A program made the translations under genes and the position numbers. Shown one piece after another: positions 26,040 through 30,924 of a DNA stretch of 64,000 bases. The DNA comes from Neobacillus mesonae. GTDB lineage: Bacteria > Bacillota > Bacilli > Bacillales > Cytobacillaceae. The notes beneath the pieces were generated by a model. It worked only from the letters and a program-made list of their open reading frames with translations. It made no database searches and was not told where the DNA came from. Each line of letters opens with the position of its first letter. Within the stretch, counting starts at the first letter, position 1. The stretch spans positions 584,203 to 648,202 of the forward strand of contig NZ_KV440949.1 of NCBI RefSeq assembly GCF_001636315.1, in the 5' to 3' direction.

Positions 26040-27389
26040 CTATAATACATCTTCGTATATACCTTCAGAGTCCTTTAATTTTTCGACTTCTTCTTCTCTT
26101 CCATTATCAGCGTTAATAAAAATGCGGTACGTATCATTTTTAATCGTGCCAAGGAATTCGTAACACAGCACTTCTTTATTTAAATCATTGACAATGACCG
26201 CTTTTCGATCCTCCATCACCTTAAGGTTTGGATTTACTTTACTCCGCGCCTCTTCCATTGTGATCGCCGCTTTGCCAATTTTCCTTGATTGCAGTGATTT
26301 TAAGTACTCTTCAGCAGACACACCAATGATATCTCCATTATCAAGTGCTACCTTCATCTTGATTGCTTCAGGATATATTCTAATGCCATTTTTATTTGTT
26401 ACAAAATTAAAGACACCGGTATTGTCATATTGAGTACTTTCAAAAAGCTCTAATTCAGTAAATCCCGTATCCTTTAAAAATTTCTGGGCTTTTGTCATCG
26501 CCTCATGTAAGCTGATTTTTTGTTTTTTTACATCGCGATGATTAATAAACCAAATCGGATGTCCGCCTTTTTTAGTAATATCCATACTGCCTTCTTGACC
26601 TGTTTTCTCATTTTTTATCGACACACTGTAAAAGCCATAATCAGATCCTTTTCCATTCTCTGTTATTTTCACCTTTGTATTTCCATCAATGTTCATATAT
26701 TTTTTGGCAATCTTAATTGCTTGATTACGTGTGATTGGATTTCCCTTAACGTTTTTAAAGTTCTCATCCTTTTTTTGCATATTCTCAAATGTCGGTCCAA
26801 AATCTGTTTCATCAAAACCGGTTACCGTTTTTTCCACAGTTTTAAATCCGTCGATGATTGTATTGTCTGTTGTTTCCTTCCCAGAGGCAAGAGCCAACTC
26901 CACATCCATCCAGCGTAGGTTATTTTTCAAAACCATATGCTGAACTCTGCGAAGCTCGTTTTGAATATCGCCTGATTGTTTATACAATACATTTAATGTG
27001 TTGTACTCTTTTTCTGTCAATGGCTCCTTATCTAAGTCTCTGATCGCCGTCCGATAGCTAAAATTACCGATGTTCGCCAAGAATTCCTCTGTCTTATTAA
27101 ATGGTAACAATGTCAGCGGGAGCTGCCCTACATCATTATGCGCTTCTGAGGTAATTCTCCAAACCTCAGCCAATGATGGCGACAATGAATGTCTTGAGTT
27201 CATTGCCAGCGTTGCCCCAATTTTGTCGTGTAATAAATCCATTTGATAAGTAAGGCCGTGGAAGGCGCGTTGGTAGTTATTCTCCGAATTTAAAAGGATT
27301 GCATTTTTTTCTTGATGCTCTTGGTAGCCCCAATACCCGGTGCCAATTACTCCGAGTGCTAACACTCCTATTAATATACCTCTAATCAC
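26040..27389 (-). CDS. ypeB: Germination protein YpeB
   Basis: YpeB is needed for SleB to be present and stable in the dormant spore, and inhibits it until germination. The 449 residues have an N-terminal membrane segment (about 3-20) followed by an extracytoplasmic helical region and three PepSY-type repeats. I chose the GTG at 27389 with AGAGGTG upstream; a longer reading from 27530 would run far into sleB. It starts 13 bases after sleB in the conserved sleB-ypeB operon. Confidence 0.95.
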   Translation of the reverse strand: MIRGILIGVLALGVIGTGYWGYQEHQEKNAILLNSENNYQRAFHGLTYQMDLLHDKIGATLAMNSRHSLSPSLAEVWRITSEAHNDVGQLPLTLLPFNKTEEFLANIGNFSYRTAIRDLDKEPLTEKEYNTLNVLYKQSGDIQNELRRVQHMVLKNNLRWMDVELALASGKETTDNTIIDGFKTVEKTVTGFDETDFGPTFENMQKKDENFKNVKGNPITRNQAIKIAKKYMNIDGNTKVKITENGKGSDYGFYSVSIKNEKTGQEGSMDITKKGGHPIWFINHRDVKKQKISLHEAMTKAQKFLKDTGFTELELFESTQYDNTGVFNFVTNKNGIRIYPEAIKMKVALDNGDIIGVSAEEYLKSLQSRKIGKAAITMEEARSKVNPNLKVMEDRKAVIVNDLNKEVLCYEFLGTIKNDTYRIFINADNGREEEVEKLKDSEGIYEDVL

Positions 27390-27402
27390 TTTTTGTTCAC
27401 CT

Positions 27403-28152
27403 CTACTTACAAAAAATATGTTTCCCAATTCTTTTGATTTGCGGTCTTGACCAAATCCATGCGCTTGTTGCTGTAGCAGGATTAAAATAATAGAGGGCTT
27501 CACCTGTTGGATCCCAGCCATTAATGGCATCGATCACAGCTTTCTTAGATGTTTCATTTGGTGTAAGCCAAATTTGGCCGTCTGCAACTGCCGTGAATGC
27601 GCCAGGTTCGAAGATAACACCAGAAACGGTATTTGGAAAAGAAGCGCTATTAACGCGATTTAAAATCACTGACGCTACCGCCACTTGGCCGATATACGGT
27701 TCTCCTCTTGACTCACCATGGACAGCATTGGCCATTAATTGAATATCATTTTGTGAGAAACCTTTCGGAATATTGACAGCGGTTGCCTTTTTAGAAGTAT
27801 TATTGGCATTCCCATTGTTTGATGAAGCATTATTACTCTTCGTATATTTCGTTGACTTCAGGAGCTTTTCCTTTGTGGTGGACCCTGCCAGTCCATCAAT
27901 TGGCAAGCCAAATTCATACTGAAAATTCCGCAATGCCCAGTAAGTTCTCCAACCAAAAACCCCATCAATTTTACCGGTATAGAAACCAATATATTTTAGT
28001 CTTGATTGAAGTTCGATCACATCTTCGCCAACTGCACCACGCTGGATTACCTGATTGGAAAATGCTTGTGCCTTATCGGCATGGATTAACGGCTGAGAAG
28101 CGCATAATAATGTAACAGCAAGCATCATTCTTAATAAACTTTTTTTATTCAT
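27403..28152 (-). CDS. sleB: Spore cortex-lytic enzyme SleB
   Basis: This lytic transglycosylase degrades cortex peptidoglycan containing muramic-delta-lactam during germination. Residues 1-30 form a signal peptide. A peptidoglycan-binding domain follows at about 36-95 (GAVGEDVIELQSRLKYIGFY), then a low-complexity N/S/K linker, then a C-terminal hydrolase domain (about 130-249) with HGESRGEPYIGQVAVASVI. It is shorter than the 305-residue B. subtilis protein, mainly in the linker and N-terminus. Its upstream region has been altered by an insertion (see 28236-29162). Confidence 0.95.
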   Translation of the reverse strand: MNKKSLLRMMLAVTLLCASQPLIHADKAQAFSNQVIQRGAVGEDVIELQSRLKYIGFYTGKIDGVFGWRTYWALRNFQYEFGLPIDGLAGSTTKEKLLKSTKYTKSNNASSNNGNANNTSKKATAVNIPKGFSQNDIQLMANAVHGESRGEPYIGQVAVASVILNRVNSASFPNTVSGVIFEPGAFTAVADGQIWLTPNETSKKAVIDAINGWDPTGEALYYFNPATATSAWIWSRPQIKRIGKHIFCK

Positions 28153-28231
28153 GGAATACGAACCCCCATTGTAAATCTTTTAACAGTAACCCTATTTTCT
28201 GTTATATTGGTGTTTTTATTCCATTAAATAC

Positions 28232-28295
28232 AAAACCCTTCATTATGAATGAAGGGCAGATTGTCGAGAAAGGGTATTTTTCTCGGCAATTTTTC
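28232..28295 (+). repeat. Terminator-like double hairpin, left inverted copy
   Basis: A 21-base near-palindrome (CCCTTCATTATGAATGAAGGG at 28236-28256) is followed by CAG and a second stem, TTGTCGAGAAA with TTTCTCGGCAA, ending in TTTTT. The same arrangement occurs in inverted orientation at 29118-29166. No plus-strand gene lies upstream, so as a terminator it is out of place. Confidence 0.65.
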
Positions 28296-28351
28296 AGTTT
28301 GTCAGACCTAAAATACGGATTATATAATAAGATTGACCATGCTAACGGGGC

Positions 28352-28483
28352 CTGTTGATTTCCGCTCCGGGCACTCGCTTTCCGCGGGGAGGTCCTGGAG
28401 CCTCCTCGTCGCTTTGCGCCTGTGGGGTCTCCAGTGACCTCTCGATCCCGCAGGAGTCGAGTGCCCTCCGCTCCAATCAACAG
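28352..28483. repeat. GC-rich interspersed palindromic repeat, full length
   Basis: This 132-base element is bounded by CTGTTGATT and AATCAACAG inverted ends, then CCGCTCC boxes. Its arms GGGCACTCG and CGAGTGCCC, then TCCGCGGGG and the CCCGCAGGA region, can fold into one long structure. It is far richer in G+C than its surroundings. I recall very similar elements as common in Bacillaceae genomes, but that was not checked here. Confidence 0.75.
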
Positions 28484-28491
28484 GGAACAAA

Positions 28492-28923
28492 TCAACCTAA
28501 AGAATTGCAACACACCTTTTCTAACCTAGTTAAATGTGTTGCAATCTTTTTTATATTTTGGCAGGCTGCAGTAAGGAGAGCCTGTTCACTCGCTTTCTTC
28601 AATCCCTGTAACTGGCAGTAGCGAAGCCCATGCAGCTCTTCCCGAGTCTGCAAAGCTTCGCTCAATTTTTTCCTTTCTAAATTTATAAAGCAGTTTTCCC
28701 GATTTAGATAAGCGATTTAACCTTACCTTTTCTTTGTACTCCTCCCATACATGTCGTGTCACAACTTTACTTTATTTTTTGAGCGTGACATTGGAATAGT
28801 AATCGGTGTTGACCAGCTAATCGTGGAGTAATGTGGTACTGAATCCTTGAATTTTAAACCTAAAAACCAGCGGTAGGCTATGTTTGTTCTTATTTCCCTT
28901 TCTAATCTCTTTTGGCTTAAACA
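28492..28923 (-). pseudogene. IS1182-type transposase remnant
   Basis: On the minus strand, 28923 to about 28800 encodes CLSQKRLEREIRTNIAYRWF and then LGLKFKDSVPHYSTISW, the conserved N-terminal block of IS1182-type DDE transposases. After a large internal deletion and stop codons, another frame reads [20 protein letters not shown] and then [12 protein letters not shown] further frameshift continues as [20 protein letters not shown] and [16 protein letters not shown], the usual C-terminus, ending at TGA (28492-28494). The catalytic middle is gone, so it cannot be active. It is bracketed by two copies of the palindromic repeat. The family name rests on recalled conserved motifs. Confidence 0.8.
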
Positions 28924-28986
28924 TTGATTTCTCCACTTATTTAAATTATTTATTTGTTGAACGGAAGGTCTTTATTGAAACACACA

Positions 28987-29034
28987 CTGTTGATTGGAGC
29001 GGCAAGCGAAGCCGCCTGGAGCGGAAATCAACAG
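28987..29034. repeat. Internally deleted copy of the palindromic repeat
   Basis: This 48-base element keeps both ends of the 28352-28483 repeat (CTGTTGATTGGAGCGG and GGAGCGGAAATCAACAG) but lacks about 84 internal bases, and is inverted relative to it. The centre CAAGCGAAGCC still gives a compact hairpin. Confidence 0.75.
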
Positions 29035-29117
29035 ACCTATTGAAAAGCTTATATATTAATAACATTATAACAAATTAACGCGGTGAATTGTTGAAGAGTA
29101 AATATAAAATAAAAGGC

Positions 29118-29166
29118 CATCGAAAGTTTTTCGACAGCCTGCCCTTCATTATGAATGAAGGGTTTT
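29118..29166 (-). terminator. Terminator after prsW, right inverted copy
   Basis: On the minus strand a near-palindrome of 21 bases is followed by CAG and the stem GGCTGTCGAAA with TTTCGATGGCC, ending in TTTTATTTT. It resembles 28232-28295 in inverted orientation. The palindrome encodes the last residues of PrsW. Confidence 0.75.
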
Positions 29167-29838
29167 TTGAACTGAATATTGTTTTTTAAAATGATTGGCA
29201 CTTAATATTTTTGCTTTTTTGACCTTCGTTAAGCCAAACCACCAGAGAAAAATCATAAATGGAAAAATAATATATACCCAATGTTCTAATGACAAAAGAA
29301 TAAAATCATAAAAACTATGAAGAATATACGGAATAAACAGCGATAGAATCAGCCATTTCGCTTTTGTTCCCTCAGTAAATTTTGCTTTTCCCAGGTAAAA
29401 ACCCATGATCACTCCGAAAAGCGCATGGCTGGATACAGGCAAAAGAGCCCGGGACATAGCATGCCCGACACCGTTTGCAATTAAATAAAAAATATTTTCA
29501 ATTGTTGCAAATCCTAATGATACGGCAACTCCATAGACAATTCCATCAAACGGTTCATCAAATTCTACATGCTGATAAACCGCATAGAAAAGGACGAACC
29601 ATTTAAAAAACTCCTCTAAAAGACCTGTGCTAAAGAAGGCATCAAAAAGGTCTGATTTAACCAAATGCTCGGTTTCGAGAACATGCTGAATAAACATGAT
29701 CGGGAACACAAGAAGCGCCCCATAAAGGAATGTCCGCAGCACAAACGAAATCGGCTCTGGTTCATATTCATCTTTTAAATAAAAATAACTGAGCAATGCC
29801 AATCCGGGGGCAATCCCGGCAGATAAGATTCCCAGCAT
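29149..29838 (-). CDS. prsW: Intramembrane protease PrsW
   Basis: PrsW makes the first cut in anti-sigma factors such as RsiW in response to envelope stress. The 229-residue protein has multiple membrane segments and the family motifs [13 protein letters not shown] (about residues 70-82), [10 protein letters not shown] (about 104-113) and [13 protein letters not shown] (about 134-146). Its last residues VQKTLHS are encoded by the terminator palindrome, so the C-terminus may have been altered when that sequence arose. B. subtilis has prsW next to sleB; here the insertion scar separates them. Confidence 0.92.
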
Positions 29839-29967
29839 GATGAACCTCTTTTCAAAAATTCCATTTTCTTAATCGTATCATGAAACTTACTATCTATAAA
29901 ATGAAAGATTCATCTTTTTGACTGTTTTCTCTAGAAAATCTGGATATATTTAACAACACTTTAAAGT

Positions 29968-30924
29968 CTAAAATTCAATTCGCTCTAAACCGCTGGCAAG
30001 GGCAACAGCCAATTTGATTCTTGCCTTTTTCGAGTCATTATCACTGCCAAGAATAACACCTTTTTTATAGAGGTCGTAGGCACTGCCCAAATAATCATAG
30101 GTAGTGTAAACCGCCCCCTCCTCGGCGCTGGTGGTAATAACCAATTTAATCCCAGCTTTAATAGCAGCCTCGATCTCTTCCATCATGTTCGGAGCCACTT
30201 GTCCTCGCCCAACTCCTTCAAGAACAATCCCCTTCACCCCGGATTCTCGTGCAGCCTTAATAAATTTCCCGTCGGCGCCAATATAACACTTTATAATATC
30301 CACTTGCGGTATTGGCGATTGAACAGCAAAACATTCTCTCTTTAACGGTTTTTGATAGAGATGTACTTGGTCATTATCAATAATCCCAAGGTAGCCAAAC
30401 CCAAAAACGTTAAACCCTTGAATATTGGAAGCATGCTCTTTTTTAACATATCTTGCAGCAAAAATACGTTCATTAAAAACAACCACTGTACCTGCATCAT
30501 GTAAATCACTAGAACAGGCGGTATAAATCGCATGCCGTAAATTAATATAGACATCACTTCCTAAGTCTTCAGGAGAACGCTGTGAACCGGTAACCACAAC
30601 GGGCCGCGGGTCCTTTATCGTTAAATCGAGAAAATAGGCAGTTTCCTCCATTGTATCGGTACCATGGGTAACTACAACACCAGAAATCGTTTCATCTTTA
30701 AAATATTGTTCTATTTTCGCTTTTAGGACTAATAAATCATCAAAGGTAATATGGATACTTGCTTTTTGGAATACGGATTCAACTATTACCTCGATATCAT
30801 CGGGGAGCTGACACATCGCAGCCAGTTCCTCCCCAGTTAAGGCGCCAGATGCTAATTTACCGGATTCCTTATTCGGTTTACTGGCGATTGTTCCACCTGT
30901 TGTTAACAAGACCACTTTTTTCAA
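29968..30924 (-). CDS. ansA: L-asparaginase
   Basis: This enzyme hydrolyses asparagine to aspartate and ammonia. The first catalytic threonine is in TTGGTIASK (residues 8-16), the second catalytic box in VVTHGTDTMEETAYFLDLT (about 84-102), and KCYIGADG lies in the C-terminal half. The 318 residues carry no signal peptide, so it is cytoplasmic. It follows ypdA by 15 bases and is probably cotranscribed with it. B. subtilis does not have an asparaginase at this position. Confidence 0.93.
   Translation of the reverse strand: MKKVVLLTTGGTIASKPNKESGKLASGALTGEELAAMCQLPDDIEVIVESVFQKASIHITFDDLLVLKAKIEQYFKDETISGVVVTHGTDTMEETAYFLDLTIKDPRPVVVTGSQRSPEDLGSDVYINLRHAIYTACSSDLHDAGTVVVFNERIFAARYVKKEHASNIQGFNVFGFGYLGIIDNDQVHLYQKPLKRECFAVQSPIPQVDIIKCYIGADGKFIKAARESGVKGIVLEGVGRGQVAPNMMEEIEAAIKAGIKLVITTSAEEGAVYTTYDYLGSAYDLYKKGVILGSDNDSKKARIKLAVALASGLERIEF

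Follow-up and report, generated by a model that had tools for sequence, protein, structure and literature searches.

The window, a stretch of 64,000 nucleotides of Neobacillus mesonae DNA (window coordinate = contig coordinate - 584202), carries prsW and sleB on its minus strand, and the spacer between these genes measures 996 bp (Table 1). Of the 60 relatives searched, G029 has the most similar sleB (85%), and its PrsW is 92% identical. The corresponding spacer in G029 is 98 bp from the prsW stop codon (101 bp with the next ATG) and contains no insert. The original prediction had attributed the distance between the two genes to the remains of an IS1182-type transposase, and the sizes agree with this explanation, as an element of 885 bp and a duplication of 21 bp together account for 906 bp of the spacer.

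Table 1. Positions of genes, transposase remnants, repeats and hairpins in and around the prsW-sleB spacer (window coordinates).
Feature	Position	Strand	Basis
sleB	27403..28152	-	ORF; PF07486 E 1.5e-36, PF01471
Target duplication, left copy, sleB side, palindromic hairpin CCCTTCATTATGAATGAAGGG	28236..28256		Repeat search, 100% over 21 nt
Whole IS1182-derived element, 885 bp, ends CAGATTGTCGAGAAA / TTTTTCGACAGCCTG	28257..29141	transposase on -	Repeats; alignment with full-length relatives
Element-end hairpin and T run, inward-reading, terminator-like	28258..28292	+	RNA fold -16.6 kcal/mol, z -5.6
GC-rich subterminal palindrome (GTTGATT...AATCAAC), 38-nt arms	28351..28484		Repeat search
Transposase remnant, NF033551 454-487	28537..28638	-	Profile search of own genome, E 1.4e-5
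Transposase remnant, NF033551 407-454, one TAA inside	28637..28780	-	Profile search of own genome, E 1.3e-7
Transposase remnant, NF033551 71-105	28816..28920	-	Profile search of own genome, E 3.2e-8
Junction of a frame-breaking internal deletion (~212 nt lost), shared exactly with C1:4393835	28906..28907		Alignment
Start codon remnant of transposase (MFKPKE...)	28922..28924	-	Read in frame; aligned with full-length relatives
Second GC-rich subterminal palindrome, shortened; full-length form in other copies	28987..29034		Repeat search, alignment
Opposite element-end hairpin and T run; predicted to terminate prsW transcripts	29114..29140	-	RNA fold -15.2 kcal/mol, z -6.0
Target duplication, right copy; prsW terminator hairpin holding the prsW stop codon	29142..29162		Repeat search
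prsW	29149..29838	-	ORF; PF13367 E 1e-35

All peptides quoted in the original prediction were found in minus-strand frames, and comparison of the translated region with NF033551, the NCBIfam profile of IS1182 transposases (488 positions; cut-off 270 bits), yielded matches over both the N-terminal and the C-terminal block with a gap between them. Because each of the three pieces is a fragment, none reaches the whole-protein cut-off. Full-length relatives exceed it (479 and 464 bits). Pfam matches to DUF772 (PF05598, E 4.6e-6) in the N-terminal piece and to DDE_Tnp_1_6 (PF13751) in the C-terminal ORFs (E 1.7e-6 and E 2e-4, the second under Pfam's own cut-off) likewise support the IS1182-type identity that had been proposed. 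Profile positions ~106-406, which comprise the catalytic middle, had no match in the window element, as expected if the catalytic centre was deleted. The window copy therefore lacks a complete DDE catalytic domain, and we filed it as a defective derivative.

The interval 28492-28923 that had initially been assigned to the remnant covers its coding part, but the whole element is about twice as long, and neither its ends nor the duplication of the terminator hairpin nor the target rule described below had been recognised. Terminal inverted repeats are present, with CAGATTGTCGAGAAA at one end and CAGGCTGTCGAAAAA on the other strand at the opposite end. The element is bordered on each side by the same hairpin, whereas G029 carries a single such hairpin and T run after prsW and thus represents the empty site. 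In both genomes prsW has its stop codon within the loop of its own terminator hairpin, which explains why duplication of the whole hairpin left prsW intact in the window. Taken together, we conclude, with a probability of roughly 0.85, that 28257-29141 is an internally deleted, transposase-dead IS1182 copy that inserted at the foot of the predicted intrinsic terminator of prsW and duplicated the entire hairpin, with prsW keeping its stop codon and hairpin and the U tract now located on the sleB side.

The GC-rich palindrome and the end hairpins are strongly structured, which could suggest that the remnant was kept for a host function, for instance as a structured RNA or in regulating the interval between prsW and sleB. 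Within the genome that contains the window, however, 11 of 12 matches to the palindrome fall inside copies of the window-type element, no conserved reading frame was found in the window copy when the three minus frames were read, and an Rfam scan of 27000-30500 returned nothing above threshold. We rejected a host-function RNA on the basis of the palindrome distribution, the Rfam result and the broken frames, and we consider retention for host use highly improbable. The best Rfam match, to engA RNA, scored 23.3 bits against the 46 needed and was treated as chance; this sub-threshold match (28236-28321) spans the target hairpin and the element-end hairpin.

Among 20 sleB loci, the side facing prsW was visible in eight, and seven of these carry no insertion sequence there. 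At the eighth, in G034, CAGATTGTAGACAAAAGG follows the hairpin at which prsW ends, and on another contig GTCGACAGTCTG and an identical hairpin precede sleB; this sleB-side end is identical to the end of repeated IS1182-like elements in G034. We read this arrangement, which spans two unbridged contigs and a transposase read by eye, as a separate event in a different species, in which another IS1182 member inserted into the same prsW-sleB terminator. The two loci of this apparent insertion are L187 and L189. In a further relative, G001 (L023), the prsW terminator is followed in the prsW-sleB spacer by another kind of insert, which is repeat-like and roughly 130 bp long.

Hairpin duplication at related insertions

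Searching the same genome with the element revealed copies at seven further main places in addition to small fragments. All six copies that retain both ends, including the window copy, carry an exact duplication of 15-21 nt that contains a hairpin, and the sequence of the duplicated hairpin differs at each of the six sites. A copy at 361794 is missing its left end, and the loops of its two hairpins are not the same; no hairpin was visible at the relic at 304523. These comparisons bear on whether the hairpins flanking the window element could instead be terminators unrelated to each other, or termini of the element itself, with no target duplication having occurred. Terminators are common between genes, and palindromes make direct and inverted repeats indistinguishable, both of which would permit such a coincidence. 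However, the exact 21-nt identity and the single hairpin in G029 led us to reject two independent terminators, and the flanking hairpin differs between insertions yet matches across each one, which leaves a coincidental pairing very doubtful.

To place the duplication in the context of the genus, at least 58 of 61 genomes showed some match to the element, in some cases solely to the GC-rich palindrome. From the matches listed, 79 regions were picked by hand that have a match starting at or near the left end, together with two G016 copies among them; the selection was made on the element match, independent of the flanks, and several left-end matches were not included. With the six copies from the window's own genome the set comprised 85 loci, and 84 after L165 was dropped for having no left end at the expected place. 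A hairpin (stem score of at least 6, ending within 4 nt) adjoins the left junction in 66 of these 84 loci, a set drawn from the matches listed, as compared with 89 of 3000 positions drawn at random from genus sequence and 29 of 1680 flanks after shuffling. Eighteen of the 84 junctions fall below a stem score of 6, and 11 fall below 5.

Right ends were located with a strict motif, which left 20 of the 84 loci without a right end and 64 copies with both ends resolved. Duplication was called when the flank match exceeded the 99th percentile of mismatched pairs, and 59 of the 64 copies had duplicated flanks with the other five not above the null, counts for which right ends were picked partly by flank similarity, which favours duplication, with the null built from the same chosen flanks. 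A T run follows the right hairpin copy in 54 of 64 cases, versus 638 of 3000 random positions. Three near-identical copies in G014 (1052-1059 bp, 98-99% identical) show a clean duplication in two cases, and the third (L130) is without a clear one. A separate observation concerns L075 (G000:C1:1137500-1140200), where two short palindrome-like matches lie ~1.9 kb apart and possibly mark another such element.

Near-identical copies remove doubt about the age of the duplications. In G010, G062 and G031, six of six, five of five and two of two testable copies, respectively, occupy different hairpins, each duplicated whole (13/13 in total), and the copies are 99.7-100% identical to one another. In G016, whole-hairpin duplication was found at 10 of 10 copies; seven copies of equal length show 10-25 differences to the first one over 1679 bases. 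All 15 testable copies from eight additional genomes of the order likewise have the whole hairpin duplicated. The hairpins in these three sets were called by eye from the flanks; G055 and the G244/G164 pair were left out of the eight-genome set, and the masked L244 and contig-end G034 copies were left out of the three-genome set. Judging from their sequence similarity, the near-identical copies in G016, G010 and G062 were apparently active recently. A pattern scan of named genomes gave at least 43 loci, some of which are the same Neobacillus places as the genus regions, that range from Neobacillus to Evansella, Thalassobacillus, Oceanobacillus and Paenibacillus cookii. Among the matches listed, 25 of 31 copies with both ends duplicate the hairpin, and six of 31 are not above the null.

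A second lineage shares the type of target site and differs in what is duplicated. The one full-length IS1182 copy in the window's own genome, C1:2728689-2730245 (L009), encodes a transposase that scores 377.6 bits and is 36% identical to that of the window lineage. Its lineage, which has GGGRCTGTTGACAA-like ends, resembles the window lineage in its IS1182 transposase, terminator-hairpin site and long end hairpin, but the loop alone is duplicated rather than the whole hairpin. The flanks of C1:2728689-2730245 read AAAAAGCGCC CATTTG before the element and CATTTG AGGCGCTTTTTTTT after it, which corresponds to a terminator with its 6-bp loop duplicated. Loop-only duplication was also found in G002 (CACTCC), G057 (TAAA) and Paenibacillus cremeus (TAAAT), such that all four copies of this lineage with both ends, each with GGGRCTGT ends, have duplicated only a loop of 4-6 bp. 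The terminator occupied by C1:2728689-2730245 lies shortly upstream of a 16S rRNA gene.

Defective copies and their probable mobility

The original prediction had described the transposase as decayed, and it is indeed broken; this is probably half the story, as a frame-breaking deletion is common to a copy at another terminator. Relative to a full-length relative, the window copy has lost ~212 nt after the start codon, which breaks the reading frame, and C1:4393835, which occupies a different terminator, has the identical junction. A frame-breaking junction shared at two terminators indicates that the deletion is probably older than at least one of the two insertions, and the aligned sequences suggest that at least one of these copies probably arrived in an already defective state. 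Alternatively, gene conversion could have spread the shared deletion. The exact junction had no match in the scan of named genomes, a set that possibly does not include the window's own genome.

Loss of the transposase can be explained in another way, by the insertion of an intact IS1182 copy into the prsW-sleB spacer that subsequently decayed in place through deletions and frameshifts. Several separate lesions do lie within a short coding stretch, and a second, larger internal deletion is not the same in the window copy and in C1:4393835, so some loss came later. However, the first, frame-breaking deletion is identical to the base in both copies, and the two 21-bp hairpin copies have remained identical while the transposase is badly broken. 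Moreover, near-identical defective copies sit at different terminators, and the family set of 63 contains 55 copies below 1500 bp and only four with an ORF of at least 420 codons. Decay in place is therefore an unlikely account of the window copy as a whole.

Two 1271-bp copies in the same genome, 97.6% identical over 1270 bases and located at different terminators, lack profile positions 92-345. The occurrence of copies without the catalytic centre at different terminators makes the window element look like one of a non-autonomous population, as judged from these alignments, rather than only a copy decaying in place. The window copy may have been moved in trans by a full-length relative. Because the one full-length IS1182 transposase in its own genome belongs to the other lineage, the profile search of that genome found no obvious helper for the window family there.

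Bacterial MITEs and other non-autonomous derivatives of insertion sequences, as described in PMC10969869, resemble the window element in having inverted-repeat ends, a duplicated target, no functional transposase and several copies. Unlike the usual MITE presented there, the window element is longer (885 bp; 233-1948 bp in the genus set) and retains recognisable transposase pieces, and its family has heterogeneous deletions.

Element ends, join points and known systems

On one side, insertion leaves the host hairpin cut off from its T run, and the element end places a new hairpin and T run beside it. For the window element, none of 200 shuffled sequences folded as stably as either end hairpin. 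The family set was defined as 63 copies, with one of the 64 both-ended copies dropped when its bounds disagreed between two scripts, and terminator-like ends were found on the left in 63 of 63 and on the right in 59 of 63; shuffled ends were terminator-like in 115 of 1260 cases on the left and 50 of 1260 on the right. Most ends of four other CAG-ended types and of the loop-type copy in the window's own genome also fold strongly despite their differing sequences; the left end in G062 showed no strong fold (z 0.1). These folds and T runs predict termination at the element ends as well as at the targeted hairpins. The element-end hairpins could take over the stop signal from the host terminator and so make up for the termination that displacement of the U tract would abolish.

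Among insertion sequences, it is unusual for the target to be selected by shape rather than by sequence. Because the duplicated hairpins vary in sequence from site to site, we propose that the transposase recognises its target as a structure, in the form of either a cruciform or a single-strand hairpin. The two 3' ends of the element would be joined at the 5' feet of this hairpin, one per strand, and gap repair would then copy the hairpin onto both sides.

Elements of the same family with related behavior are known from staphylococci. According to PMC5678879 and PMC4923244, IS1272 and TnSha1 insert into inverted repeats and terminator hairpins without a sequence consensus, remove all or part of the hairpin and have no reported target duplication. 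They resemble the window element in their IS1182-family transposase and palindromic or terminator target; the hairpin is lost there, whereas the whole hairpin is duplicated here. An IS1272-type insertion at the window site, in which the element replaces the inverted repeat and leaves no duplication, would draw on this shared transposase family and target kind, terminators included, but it is contradicted by the intact hairpin on both sides of the window element, as in most relatives, and we regard it as vanishingly improbable. A model figure in PMC5678879 presents joining at the 5' feet, with the whole stem-loop duplicated (pathway b), or at the loop (pathway c) as alternatives, and the two lineages analysed here look like followers of pathways b (whole hairpin) and c (loop), respectively.

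Other reports on the family point to variable outcomes. ISCaa15 of Amoebophilus, as listed in PMC3196728, is an IS1182 member with 18-bp inverted repeats and, unlike the window element, 4-bp direct repeats, which indicates that the length of the duplication varies within the family. PMC12056078 states that little information is available on IS1182-type elements, whose action may or may not duplicate the target and may or may not involve a deletion. A demonstration of whole-hairpin or loop duplication for the IS1182 family was not found in the open-access literature searched. ISfinder lists variable repeat lengths for the family, so its curators may know single cases.

A joint reading of these observations, to which we give even odds, is that IS1182 transposases choose their target by the hairpin structure of DNA, or of a nascent transcript, and that the join point is set by the lineage, for which the end sequence is the marker. 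Joining would occur at the 5' feet in the CAG-ended lineage of Bacillales, with duplication of the whole hairpin, at the loop edge in the GGGRCTGTTGACAA-ended lineage, with duplication of the loop, and at the 3' feet in IS1272, with loss of the hairpin. Within this joint reading, terminators at both ends would allow the elements to insert downstream of genes and reinstate the stop signal, and they would thus be nearly harmless passengers, whose defective copies spread in trans.

As an object, the window element is ordinary, a dead copy of an insertion sequence; its value lies in the insertion rule that it exposes. For annotation, hairpin-bounded spacers downstream of genes can be dead IS1182 copies. 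Targeting of terminators agrees with the over-representation of IS1182 between convergent genes that a published survey reports (PMC9208149). The rule offers a simple explanation for the inconsistency among IS1182 insertions, namely two lineages with two join positions on one kind of hairpin, both present in one genome. The comparisons of junctions and ends suggest structure-guided insertion into terminators, with lineage-specific join points and with elements that bring their own replacement terminators.
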